From: Methanolobus psychrophilus R15
GTDB lineage: Archaea > Halobacteriota > Methanosarcinia > Methanosarcinales > Methanosarcinaceae
Reading direction: 5' to 3'
NCBI GenBank assembly: GCA_000306725.1
Contig: CP003083.1
Coordinates: 372,001 to 436,000, forward strand
Length of the DNA: 64,000 bases
Position 1 is the first letter of the stretch. Each line of letters starts with the position of its first letter. The position numbers and the translations under genes are program-made. Positions 60,284 through 64,000 of this stretch are shown here, in pieces. The notes beneath the pieces are model-generated. The model was not told where the DNA came from. It made no database searches and worked only from the letters and a program-made list of their open reading frames with translations.

Positions 60284-60514
60284 TCAAGTCGAAAAAGCAC
60301 GCCCCAGATAACCGGCCCGTGCAGCAAAAAGATATCTGGTTTCAGGAGGGATTTTGCCTGCATCTTCTCCAATTATCTCAAGGTTGCGGACAACCGCATC
60401 AACCCGCATCTCGTCTTCCAGAAATTCCTCAAGAGTGATATTCTCCATATAGCTTTGGATTTTCTCGATTGCTGCAAGCATATCTGCAAAGAAAACCAGT
60501 TGGTCTCTAGGCAT
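60284..60514 (-). pseudogene. hepT: hepT toxin gene, 3'-truncated
   Basis: 76 residues of the HepT (DUF86) family that partners MNT. The N-terminal helices are clear: QLVFFADMLAAIEKIQSYME and VVRNLEIIGEDAGKIPPE. After this the reading frame diverges and stops, so the C-terminal half with the RX4-6H RNase-like motif (normally RNxLxHxY) is missing. The toxin should therefore be inactive. It overlaps the end of the mntA frame. Confidence 0.75.
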
Positions 60515-60790
60515 AAACAGCCTCTTTCAGGATATGCTCTCTTAGCCGTGGCTTTATGGCAGTCTCAATGACAAGGTCCACGTCTCTTCCAAAAAGTTCT
60601 TCGAGATAGAACTTGAGTTCCATATAATTACCAAAGGTCTTTGACCTTCTTTGAATTCCACAAGGATATCAACATCACTGTCTTCGTGTTCCTCTCCTCT
60701 TGCAAAAGAACCGAAAACACCCACTTTTTTTACATCAAAACGCTCCATTATCACGTTCTCATGTTCTCTTAATATCCCGAGGACATCCAT
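60507..60790 (-). pseudogene. mntA: mntA antitoxin gene, frameshifted
   Basis: Minimal nucleotidyltransferase that detoxifies HepT. The intact frame has VKKVGVFGSFARGEEHEDSD with the GSFxRG...DxD catalytic motif. After FKEGQ a single-base loss (AAA where AAAA is expected, near 60647) throws the frame out; the next frame resumes as NYMELKFYLEELFGRDVDLV and ends at 60507-60509. Joined, the protein is 94 residues, the normal size. Confidence 0.78.
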
Positions 60791-60948
60791 TATTATTGCT
60801 CACCGACAAAGTTTAAATCGTTAACCCTGAACGTGGCAGAAACCGGTTAATGAAAAATGAGAGCACATAGGGCCGTGGTAACTGTTTGGAACCTACTACA
60901 CTGTTCACTCCGGCCAGAAGTAAACCCTTCGTTAAAGTGAAAGCAATC

Positions 60949-61176
60949 TCAAAGAAGATTCAAGAACTCTTCCGGCGTCATTCCCGATTGCCGGATTATT
61001 GATCTTAACGTCCCGACGGGAATTTCGTCATAATCAGGGATTATAGTAACAAATGTTGCATCAGGAGTTCTTTTTTTCATTTTTATGTGGCTTCCCTTTT
61101 GAGACACGATCTGAAAACCGGCAGTTTCCAGAATCTTGATGACTTTATGTGCTGACAGAAGAGGAATCCTTGTCAT
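60949..61176 (-). CDS. hicA: HicA-type mRNA interferase toxin
   Basis: 75 residues with the double-stranded-RNA-binding-like HicA fold. The catalytic histidine is in QKGSHIKMKK (about residue 30). Typical N-terminal helix SAHKVIKILETAGF and C-terminal SGMTPEEFLNLL. Its start lies 32 bases inside the end of hicB, so the antitoxin gene comes first and the two are coupled. Confidence 0.88.
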   Translation of the reverse strand: MTRIPLLSAHKVIKILETAGFQIVSQKGSHIKMKKRTPDATFVTIIPDYDEIPVGTLRSIIRQSGMTPEEFLNLL

Positions 61177-61387
61177 ACGAAACCTCGAAGGTAGTTGTGA
61201 AAACAGAATTGCCTTCTACTATAACAGTGTCCTCATCTTCCAGGTAAAGTTCTACTGCTTCCTTAAGGTTAGCAATAGCCCCCTCTACATCCTTACCCTG
61301 GCTTGCAATGTCCAGTTCAGGACACCATGATACATACCAATCTCCTTCTTTATGTATAACTGCAGAGAACTTGTGTGAATATTGCAT
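61145..61387 (-). CDS. hicB: HicB-type antitoxin
   Basis: 80 residues with the partially degraded RNase H fold of HicB: FSAVIHKEGDWYVSWCPELD followed by the helix VEGAIANLKEAVELYLED. The C-terminus is short with no clear DNA-binding domain. Transcribed before hicA and overlapping it, which is the usual order in archaea. Confidence 0.88.
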   Translation of the reverse strand: MQYSHKFSAVIHKEGDWYVSWCPELDIASQGKDVEGAIANLKEAVELYLEDEDTVIVEGNSVFTTTFEVSYDKDSSSVST

Positions 61388-61514: not shown

Positions 61515-62411
61515 ATGATGGAAGTCACAAATGATTCCGAGAGTACGTTTTTAACATATATTAATAAAATTTTGTTTTACGATGTATGGGAGAATGAGAA
61601 GTTTAGCGATGAACAAAGAAACCTATTCAAAAGTCTTCTAGACAAAAACTATCATAGATTATATGGCAGAAAAATTAATAAAGAGATAATTTATATTGGG
61701 CTTGATCATCCGTCGACAAATGAAATTAATGGACAAACGTTAATGTTTGGTCCTGCTGGTAATCTATGCAATTGTCCTGAAATAATCATAACTGGAATAT
61801 CAACTTCAATAACAGCTGCTAATGGGATTGCAAATCAATTAATAAACAGCGACTTAAACTTACTATCCACAAATGATTTGAGAAGCATATACCTTCAAAA
61901 CATTTACAAAGGAAAGATGTATACACAATTTAAAAAAGATTGGATGGACAGATCAAAAGATAGCATCTATGAGTCTTCATTCTCAACTTTGTTTGAAATC
62001 ATTGAAGGTGCCAGGAAGGAATCAAATAATATCAACATTATGGTTACACAAATGACTTTACATGGAATAGCTACTTTTTACGATAAACGACATGATAGGA
62101 ATACATGGCATTCACCATCAAATGCTGTGTTTAAAAGTGAGATTTCAAAAAACTTATATAAAGAATATTTTGTAGATAAAGTTCTAATAGCAAAATTCCT
62201 TGAAAATAAAAATGCTAAGTATTTGTTTGTTATGGGAAATGATGCATATACTATGCTTAAGAGAACATTCAAAAATGATAGAAACTTGTCTTCATTGAAT
62301 AACAAAAGAGTTCAGTTTATTGATGTAATAGAAGATGACTTTAAAATGGTGAACTTCAGTTTGGATCCTAACATGAAATACATAATTAAGATTAAACATG
62401 CAGCGGCATGA
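61515..62411 (+). CDS. Orphan AT-rich hypothetical protein
   Basis: 298 residues encoded by DNA clearly richer in A and T than its neighbours, next to toxin-antitoxin remnants, so probably acquired. Soluble. Two segments recall the uracil-DNA-glycosylase-like fold, IIYIGLDHPSTNEI (like the first active-site loop) and KYLFVMGNDAYTML (like the later strand), but the match is loose. Also present are MVTQMTLHGIATFYDKRHDR and NTWHSPSNAVF. I do not recognise the family. Confidence 0.5.
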   Translation: MMEVTNDSESTFLTYINKILFYDVWENEKFSDEQRNLFKSLLDKNYHRLYGRKINKEIIYIGLDHPSTNEINGQTLMFGPAGNLCNCPEIIITGISTSITAANGIANQLINSDLNLLSTNDLRSIYLQNIYKGKMYTQFKKDWMDRSKDSIYESSFSTLFEIIEGARKESNNINIMVTQMTLHGIATFYDKRHDRNTWHSPSNAVFKSEISKNLYKEYFVDKVLIAKFLENKNAKYLFVMGNDAYTMLKRTFKNDRNLSSLNNKRVQFIDVIEDDFKMVNFSLDPNMKYIIKIKHAAA

Positions 62412-62441: not shown

Positions 62442-62450
62442 CTTAAATAT
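62442..62450 (+). promoter_or_regulatory. TATA box of the leader/acetolactate synthase transcript
   Basis: CTTAAATAT, about 27 bases upstream of the leader ATG at 62473, so transcription should begin at or near that ATG (leaderless). Confidence 0.55.
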
Positions 62451-62472
62451 CACCTCCCCCAATTCTCCCATA

Positions 62473-62550
62473 ATGTCAATCCCTACCACAACCTACACCG
62501 TACCTGACGTACCCGTTGTAGCTGTAGTAGTGGTAGTACTGTCAGCTTGA
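62473..62550 (+). CDS. Valine-rich leader peptide upstream of acetolactate synthase
   Basis: 25-codon frame ATG to TGA. Nine residues are valine (positions 10, 13, 15, 16 and 18-22, the last five in a row), with one isoleucine and one leucine; the C-terminus reads VVVVVLSA. Valine, leucine and isoleucine are products of the pathway started by the downstream enzyme. There is no ribosome site, but the TATA box spacing predicts a leaderless start. Hairpin 62504-62545 (CTGACGTAC with GTAC-T-GTCAG) encloses most of the valine codons. The low-complexity GTA repeats could arise by chance, so translation is unproven. Confidence 0.5.
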   Translation: MSIPTTTYTVPDVPVVAVVVVVLSA

Positions 62551-62593
62551 GCAAGATCAAAGGAAACTTTTCGGGCTCAAGTGCACTGTTTTT
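62546..62593 (+). terminator. Attenuator-like hairpin with T tract
   Basis: CTTGAGC (62546-62552) pairs perfectly with GCTCAAG (62575-62581); inside is a second small stem AAAG-gaaa-CTTT (62559-62570). Seven bases later comes TTTTT (62589-62593), continued by ggttgttt. The 5' arm contains the leader stop codon (62548-62550), so a ribosome stalled on the last valine codons would cover it. Located 60-107 bases before the acetolactate synthase start. Confidence 0.55.
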
Positions 62594-62652
62594 GGTTGTT
62601 TACTGATTAGTGTATCCTGTGCCTGGATCGTTTCTTTCACGGAGAATTGAAA

Positions 62653-64000
62653 ATGGAAGAAATGAACGGAGCAGAAATCCTTGTTAAATGCCTGGAGGAC
62701 CTTGGGGTCAGACACGTCTTTGGTTATACGGGAGCGGCAATACTTCCGGTATTTCATGCCCTGAAGGATAGCGGTATAGAGATAATCATCAATTCCAACG
62801 AGCAGTCGTCGGCGTTCAGCGCGGCGGGGTACTCGCGGTCTAGCGGACAGGTCGGTGTCGCAATAGTCACATCCGGACCTGCCATCACCAACACCCTCAC
62901 AAGCGTTGCGGATGCTTTTGGTGACAGTATTCCGTTGCTGGTATTTGCGGGGCAGGTCCCGGAGCATAAGATAGGCACCGACTCCTTCCAGCACATCAGC
63001 GTCAGGAATGTCTTTGGGGACGCTGCCAAGAAGGTCATCCAGCTCTCCAATGATGACGATGTCGAAACAATAGTCAAGGACGCCTACTACTTTGCAAAGT
63101 CTGGCAAGCCGGGACCTGTTGTCATAGATTTTCCCATGGACAAACAGCAGAAGGTCCACGAGTATCAGGGCATGAACGTCATGAGGTTCGAGGAGAGTTA
63201 TCATGACGACAGGCACCTGTGTGAGGAACAATGCGCAGAGTTCTTCCGGCTGCTGCTCAACTCCAGGAAACCGCTGCTCTACCTGGGCGGTGGCCTGAAC
63301 TCGGAAGCAGGAAGCAAGGCCATCAGGGAGTTCAACGAGCACTTCAATATTCCCTCGGTCAACACCCTCATGGCAAAGGGCGTCGTTGACGAGCGGGACG
63401 AACTCAACCTCGGGATGCTGGGCATGTTCGGCACTCCCTGCGCCAATATGCTCATCCAGGAGAACGACTTCTTCTTCGCCATCGGGGTCCGGTGGGATGA
63501 CAGGGTCGCGGAGAAGGTCGGGTTTGCAATAGGCACCGACATAGCCTACATCGATATCAATCCTGAAAAGATGCACCAGATAAAGATTGAACGCGGCCCG
63601 AAATTTACATTCATCGGTGATGCTGCCACAGCCATCCGGGACCTGCTCAATTATGCTAAAAAGCATAATATCACTCTGGATATACACGAGTGGCAGGAGC
63701 GTGCCAGATTCCTAAAGAGGTCCTGGCCTCTGGATTATAACAGGGAGTCCGAACATATACAATCTGCCGAGGTCATGGCCCTGCTGGCAGGCTATATCGA
63801 CGGGAACACGAAGATAACTACAGGCGTCGGCAACCATCAGATGCTTGCGGCCCAGTACCTGCCCATGCAAAGTGCAAAATCCTTCATGACATCAGGCTCT
63901 TTCGGAACAATGGGTTTTTCCCTGCCCACAGCCATCGGTGTCTGCTATGCCAACCCGGAGGCAAGGGTCATTGCTATCGACGGTGACGGCAGCCTGAAAA
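62653..64000 (+). CDS. ilvB: Acetolactate synthase large subunit (runs off the window)
   Basis: 449 complete codons from the ATG at 62653, with GGAGAA about eight bases upstream; the 3' end is beyond the window. ThDP-dependent enzyme that makes acetolactate or acetohydroxybutyrate for valine, leucine and isoleucine. The catalytic glutamate is in NSNEQSSAFSAAGYS; the region GTDSFQHISVRNVFG matches the family's FAD/substrate loop; the middle domain has KPLLYLGGGLNSEAGSKAI; the ThDP domain has VGNHQMLAAQYLP, SGSFGTMGFSLPTAIG and the start of the GDGS motif. Preceded by the valine-rich leader and hairpin. Confidence 0.88.
   Translation, partial: MEEMNGAEILVKCLEDLGVRHVFGYTGAAILPVFHALKDSGIEIIINSNEQSSAFSAAGYSRSSGQVGVAIVTSGPAITNTLTSVADAFGDSIPLLVFAGQVPEHKIGTDSFQHISVRNVFGDAAKKVIQLSNDDDVETIVKDAYYFAKSGKPGPVVIDFPMDKQQKVHEYQGMNVMRFEESYHDDRHLCEEQCAEFFRLLLNSRKPLLYLGGGLNSEAGSKAIREFNEHFNIPSVNTLMAKGVVDERDELNLGMLGMFGTPCANMLIQENDFFFAIGVRWDDRVAEKVGFAIGTDIAYIDINPEKMHQIKIERGPKFTFIGDAATAIRDLLNYAKKHNITLDIHEWQERARFLKRSWPLDYNRESEHIQSAEVMALLAGYIDGNTKITTGVGNHQMLAAQYLPMQSAKSFMTSGSFGTMGFSLPTAIGVCYANPEARVIAIDGDGSLK

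Follow-up and report, generated by a model that had tools for sequence, protein, structure and literature searches.

A conserved valine-rich leader and overlapping RNA folds upstream of an archaeal acetolactate synthase gene suggest ribosome-mediated attenuation

An acetolactate synthase (ALS) gene of Methanolobus psychrophilus R15 lies at the end of the window, the 64,000-nucleotide stretch of DNA analysed here. It is preceded by a TATA box, a short leader frame with nine valine codons, five of them consecutive, and a series of RNA segments capable of alternative pairing (Table 1). The first-pass annotation had described the TATA box, a leaderless 25-codon frame and a second hairpin, which has the leader stop codon in its 5' arm and a T-tract after it, and their coordinates were reproduced. 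The ALS gene is solitary, the next gene being convergent. A 298-aa ORF at 61515-62411 (+), without an NCBIfam match, adjoins the promoter on its 5' side, and small ORFs at 60284-61387 (-) resemble MNT/HEPN-like and HicA/HicB-like toxin-antitoxin pairs, as read from their translations.

Table 1. Features of the leader region and ALS start in the Methanolobus psychrophilus R15 window
Feature	Position	Strand	Remark
TATA box CTTAAATA	62442..62449	+	box end 23 nt 5' of leader ATG
Leader ORF, 25 codons, MSIPTTTYTVPDVPVVAVVVVVLSA then stop, probably leaderless	62473..62550	+	48 orthologous leaders in frame
Five-valine-codon run GTA GTA GTG GTA GTA, candidate control codons	62524..62538	+	
Segment 1 CTACCAC	62483..62489	+	pairs with 62530-62536; 95-100% of cells paired, Methanosarcinaceae
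Segment 2 GTGGTAG, within valine codons	62530..62536	+	partner of segment 1
Segment 3 CTTGAGC, 5' arm of 3:4	62546..62552	+	holds leader stop TGA 62548-62550
Segment 4 GCTCAAG, 3' arm of 3:4	62575..62581	+	
T-tract TTTTT, candidate termination or 3'-cleavage site	62589..62593	+	conserved in Methanosarcinaceae
4:5, 5' half	62563..62588	+	GAAAC 62563-62567, CGGGC 62572-62576, TGCACTG 62582-62588
4:5, 3' half	62608..62634	+	TAGTGTA 62608-62614, GCCTG 62621-62625, GTTTC 62630-62634
Segment 5 CGTTTCTTTCA	62629..62639	+	can pair with ALS start region 62654-62664 (5:6)
Shine-Dalgarno-like GGAG of ALS gene	62641..62644	+	sits in 5:6 loop
ALS start ATGGAAGAAATG	62653..62664	+	last 11 bases = segment 6 of 5:6
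Acetolactate synthase (acetohydroxyacid synthase, AHAS) large-subunit gene, 602 aa	62653..64000	+	extends past window end

The ALS protein shares 35% identity with the product of the canonical ilvB elsewhere in the same genome, scores 497 bits against TIGR00118, under the cut-off of 538, and finds AHAS as its closest match among PDB structures (E about 1e-110). It carries leucine where the canonical paralogue has tryptophan, as does every orthologue with a readable position, at what we take to be the site governing 2-ketobutyrate preference in AHAS mutants. A pyruvate-preferring, valine/leucine-directed ALS would be coherent with a valine leader. The canonical ilvB, two hisG genes and three leuA-like genes of R15 showed no comparable leader, which gives no indication that this genome uses such leaders generally. 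The two hisG genes (G000:C1:1855924-1856472 and 331515-332075) both score above the family cut-off.

The search covered 60 relatives and then 112 Methanosarcinaceae genomes, the element being sought with a covariance model. This ALS subfamily and the RNA element occur together in 44 of the 112 genomes, and the remaining 68 have neither; the ALS gene is undisrupted over the searched stretch or interrupted by a single in-frame TAG in 43 of the carriers and clearly broken in one. Carriers belong by name to Methanolobus, Methanosarcina, Methanococcoides, Methanohalophilus and Methanohalobium. No carrier outside the Methanosarcinaceae was added by an evenly drawn set of 295 genomes from the phylum. 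The same layout with leader and hairpin appears on four more archaeal contigs, which carry the labels Nanoarchaeota, Woesearchaeota or 'archaeon'; these DPANN-labelled contigs are metagenome bins whose taxon labels may be wrong, and two of them (L053 and L055) were detected by a model not trained on them. The leader is absent in four bacterial relatives of the ALS (L056, L059, L060, L061). Together, the 44 Methanosarcinaceae and four DPANN-labelled sequences form a set of 48 orthologous leaders, which are related, so that counts over them are not independent. Conservation of the valine-rich frame and hairpin in relatives, which the first-pass annotation had named as a test of its proposal, was thus found.

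Leader length ranges from 22 to 30 codons and changes by whole multiples of three in all 48 sequences, unlike the non-coding spacer 3' of the leader, which varies by single bases. The C-terminus typically reads V-V-V-L-x-A-stop, with alanine last in 48/48, leucine third-last in 45/48, and valine at positions -4, -5 and -6 from the peptide end in 45, 47 and 47 of the 48. Distant leaders keep the branched-chain residues while using other codons (MLNNSTNYIMTLLVVVVVVLIA, MNNITNLQSVLLLLVVVVLLVA, MQITNRTMRAFLLALVMLVVLVA). Counting both strands of the 3.07 Mb, in-frame runs of five valine codons turn up at about five separate sites. Between the leader stop and the ALS start, the non-coding sequence shares 87-93% identity with that of three congeners, against only 48-55% at fourfold-degenerate ALS sites. 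The rarity of such runs, the conservation above synonymous sites and the common leader ending disfavour a chance origin. The TATA box lies 22-26 nt from the leader ATG in 45/48 sequences, a spacing that matches a start site expected at the ATG; transcription therefore probably starts at or beside this codon, making the leader leaderless, and the frame itself appears to be translated. Leaderless transcripts make up about 16% of those mapped in M. psychrophilus (PMC5378194), and the main texts of this dRNA-seq paper and of a Ribo-seq paper (PMC11456600) make no mention of this ALS gene.

Extended conservation of non-coding sequence, together with alternative folds, could also reflect a ligand-binding riboswitch or a protein-bound 5' UTR, the short frame being incidental. 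This is improbable, given that the frame, valine run and stop position are retained in 48/48 with length changes in threes, that the ending stays rich in branched-chain residues in distant sequences despite different codons, and that Rfam gives no match; searched for T-box, riboswitches and known leaders at E up to 10, it returned two weak matches far below gathering scores. Still less credible is a leader that works as a functional small (e.g. hydrophobic) protein, with RNA folds serving mRNA stability only. Such a protein would suit the conserved hydrophobic C-terminal run, but the RNA segment pairing with the valine codons is the one that encodes the conserved N-terminal residues, the element always co-occurs with the ALS gene, and among three decayed extra copies not located at ALS, two lack the ATG.

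The N-terminal segment takes part in the conserved pairing 1:2 (CUACCAC/GUGGUAG), which links the leader beginning to the valine codons and would explain why the threonine-rich N-terminus is conserved. Among 334 leader valine codons, 210 are GTA and 103 GTG, a bias attributable in part to pairing with segment 1; valine codons of the window ALS gene are mainly GTC, and the long ORFs of the window use valine codons evenly. The nine-pair, one-bulge hairpin at 62504-62545 originally proposed to enclose these codons is present in the window, but occurs in only 3/48 sequences, those of the window genome and two close relatives.

The second hairpin, 3:4 (CUUGAGC/GCUCAAG, 7 bp), is paired in 99.7% of cells across the 48 sequences, with compensatory changes at two pairs, as in CTTGAAC/GTTCAAG (L020) and CTTAAAC/GTTTAAG (L063, where the stop is TAA), and its 5' arm contains the leader stop codon in 48/48. 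In Methanosarcinaceae, T4 is found in 43/44 sequences and T5 in 39/44 (base rates 17% and 5%), at a nearly fixed distance of 7 nt from 3:4; the tract is broken in L013 and missing in two DPANN contigs, L052 and L055. Regulated termination at this conserved tract is plausible from the alignment. The fixed tract and the stop position would suit transcription attenuation only, with 3:4 and the U-tract terminating transcription and a stalled ribosome blocking 3:4. Against this exclusive role stand the sequences with an absent or broken tract, the ability of U-tracts in many archaea to terminate transcription without a hairpin, and a further fold, 4:5, that extends past the tract.

The 5' strand of 4:5 comprises the 3:4 loop, the 3' arm and bases just beyond, and its 3' strand lies upstream of the ALS ribosome-binding site; GAAAC, CUGGC and UGCGCUG pair with UAGUGUA, GCCGG and GUUUC. 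Paired cells amount to 93.2%, with both-side changes at 11 of 17 pairs, whereas slid versions reach 35-54% and none of 500 shuffles scores as high. Examples include GAAAAAATCA/TGATTTTTTC (L065), GAAATTA/TAATTTC (L074), GGAAAA/TTTTCC (L052) and GGCTCAAGTG/CATTTGAGCC (L055). Both 3:4 and 4:5 are conserved while having arm-4 bases in common. A pseudoknot that keeps 3:4 and pairs the 3:4 loop with segment 5 may form instead, yet in L055 the 4:5 pairing occupies arm 4 entirely, so that 3:4 and 4:5 compete there. Since the 3' half of this strongly covarying fold is transcribed after the T-tract, 4:5 comes too late to decide termination there, and translation is placed first as the output. Termination as the sole mechanism is accordingly judged unlikely, and an output at the level of translation, with or without termination, is the more likely reading. 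The termination logic suggested by the first-pass annotation agrees with the conserved tract but is incomplete, as covarying 4:5, which reaches past the tract and competes with pairing over the ALS start codon, points to translational control, either by itself or combined with termination. The reverse logic, with 4:5 as the terminator, was rejected because 4:5 is not consistently succeeded by a T-tract.

Segment 5 (GUUUCUUUC) can pair either with segment 4 or, as 5:6, with the ALS start (AUGGAAGAAAUG). About 90% of cells are paired in 5:6, with little compensatory change, and ALS codon 3 is GAA in 42/43 orthologues, although GAA makes up only 47% of glutamate codons elsewhere in the gene. Another pairing over the Shine-Dalgarno sequence, UCCUGUG:CACGGAG, was dropped, as 5:6 folds better in most sequences.

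Accessibility of the ALS start region was estimated as the predicted cost of opening it with 3:4 formed or with arm 3 masked as a proxy for a stalled ribosome, the energies referring to naked RNA at 37 C. Masking arm 3 reduced the mean predicted cost from the 9.2 kcal/mol of the state in which 3:4 is formed to 4.9, a drop of 4.2; the window gave 10.7 and 5.5 kcal/mol, respectively. Masking lowered the cost by more than 1 kcal/mol in 44/48 sequences, with none in the opposite direction. Shuffling segment 4 reduced the difference to 0.3 kcal/mol, and shuffling the segment-5 region brought the closed-state cost down to 6.7 kcal/mol. Values for the DPANN contigs were mixed, at +7.6 kcal/mol for L052 and, with corrected start codons or longer 3' flank, +2.0 for L063, +1.6 for L053 and -4.1 for L055. 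The accessibility switch is thus predicted clearly for Methanosarcinaceae, but not uniformly for the DPANN contigs.

At the sequence level, the leader frame, promoter spacing, 1:2, 3:4, 4:5 and T-tract are conserved, and the original proposal of a ribosome-mediated attenuator in an archaeon stands, strongly supported by conservation of the leader and overlapping hairpin. In the proposed mechanism, transcription would start at or beside the leader ATG. With charged tRNA-Val plentiful, the ribosome would pass the valine run, end at the stop codon in arm 3 and depart; 3:4 would then form, leaving segment 5 free to form 5:6 over the ALS start codon and turn translation off, while the U-tract 3' of 3:4 would probably also terminate some transcripts. 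When valine is scarce, a ribosome halted on the last codons of the valine run would cover arm 3 and prevent 3:4, so that segment 4 would pair with segment 5, exposing the ALS ribosome-binding site and allowing ALS to be made. Valine stalling, termination and induction are inferred, as are the regulatory direction and the relative contributions of translation and termination.

Sensing by stall position is the weakest step of this model. The last valine codon lies four codons 5' of the stop in nearly all leaders. If a ribosome footprint is taken to reach about 15 nt beyond the P site, a ribosome on the last run codons would cover the start of arm 3, whereas one on the first run codons (62524-62529) would miss it. 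The earlier expectation that a stall on Val18-Val22 covers the arm accordingly narrows to late stalls, at about Val20-Leu23. It is very likely that the element is a conserved archaeal leader-peptide attenuator, and we consider it probable that it is a cis-acting, ribosome-mediated valine attenuator of ALS translation, probably with T-tract termination in addition. The fullest reading, an archaeal valine sensor in which ribosomes stalling within a leaderless frame chiefly control whether the start codon of the next gene is exposed or hidden, with termination second and with joint transfer of gene and switch between methanogens and DPANN, is held with slightly better than even confidence.

Ribosome-mediated attenuation is a textbook form of amino-acid control in bacteria, and in Escherichia coli the ilvB and ilvGMEDA leader attenuators encode end-product-rich peptides upstream of ALS genes. 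The archaeal element resembles these in its hairpin and T-tract and in a ribosome position that would select the RNA fold; it differs in being probably leaderless, in the stop codon lying inside arm 3, and in a conserved fold predicted to expose the ALS start through RNA past the T-tract. The ilvBNC attenuator of Corynebacterium glutamicum is of the bacterial terminator type, with a three-hairpin model (PMC11857589), and its leader lacks a ribosome-binding site (Morbach 2000, as cited in PMC13158618). Both systems have a short leader coding for branched-chain amino acids 5' of the ALS gene, apparently translated without a ribosome-binding site, but their sequences and structures differ. In ermC, as proposed for the archaeal element, a leader-stalled ribosome refolds the mRNA and releases the ribosome-binding site of the next gene (PMC10219788); the signal there is an antibiotic with the nascent peptide, whereas the archaeal signal is most likely a shortage of charged tRNA-Val. 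The LEU element 5' of actinobacterial leuA likewise combines a leader carrying a leucine-codon run with an alternative structure involving the Shine-Dalgarno box (PMC1262725), but is a bacterial pseudoknot in which the leucine codons pair with that box itself, unlike the archaeal element. No case of archaeal ribosome-mediated attenuation was found in the literature searched, outside which most subscription papers lie. Culturable Methanosarcina, Methanolobus, Methanococcoides and Methanohalophilus carry the element, making leader-translation control of biosynthesis in archaea directly testable; if the model is true, the element is a natural tRNA-charging sensor based on leaderless initiation.

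Several loci depart from the common arrangement. Three Methanolobus genomes hold a second, decaying copy of the element 5' of a 172-aa membrane-protein-like gene (L103, G026:C15:198720-198836; L104, G020:C1:3141481-3141604; L105, G023:C4:22671-22766); the part corresponding to the ALS ribosome-binding site is missing from these copies. At a locus of another genus (L106, G027:C6:1843-2055), the promoter is joined directly to the GGTTTC...GGAG start region, followed by an ALS gene fragment with a stop, the leader and hairpins having been lost. The single in-frame TAG in a Methanohalophilus ALS gene (G088:C2:1112334-1113680) could be a codon for pyrrolysine, which Methanosarcinaceae use, an error or a sign of decay. 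In a Methanohalobium MAG, the ALS gene (L065 / L108, G083:C88:12636-13984) has TAA at codon 2 and more stops and is probably a pseudogene or poorly assembled, the leader and both folds being nevertheless intact.
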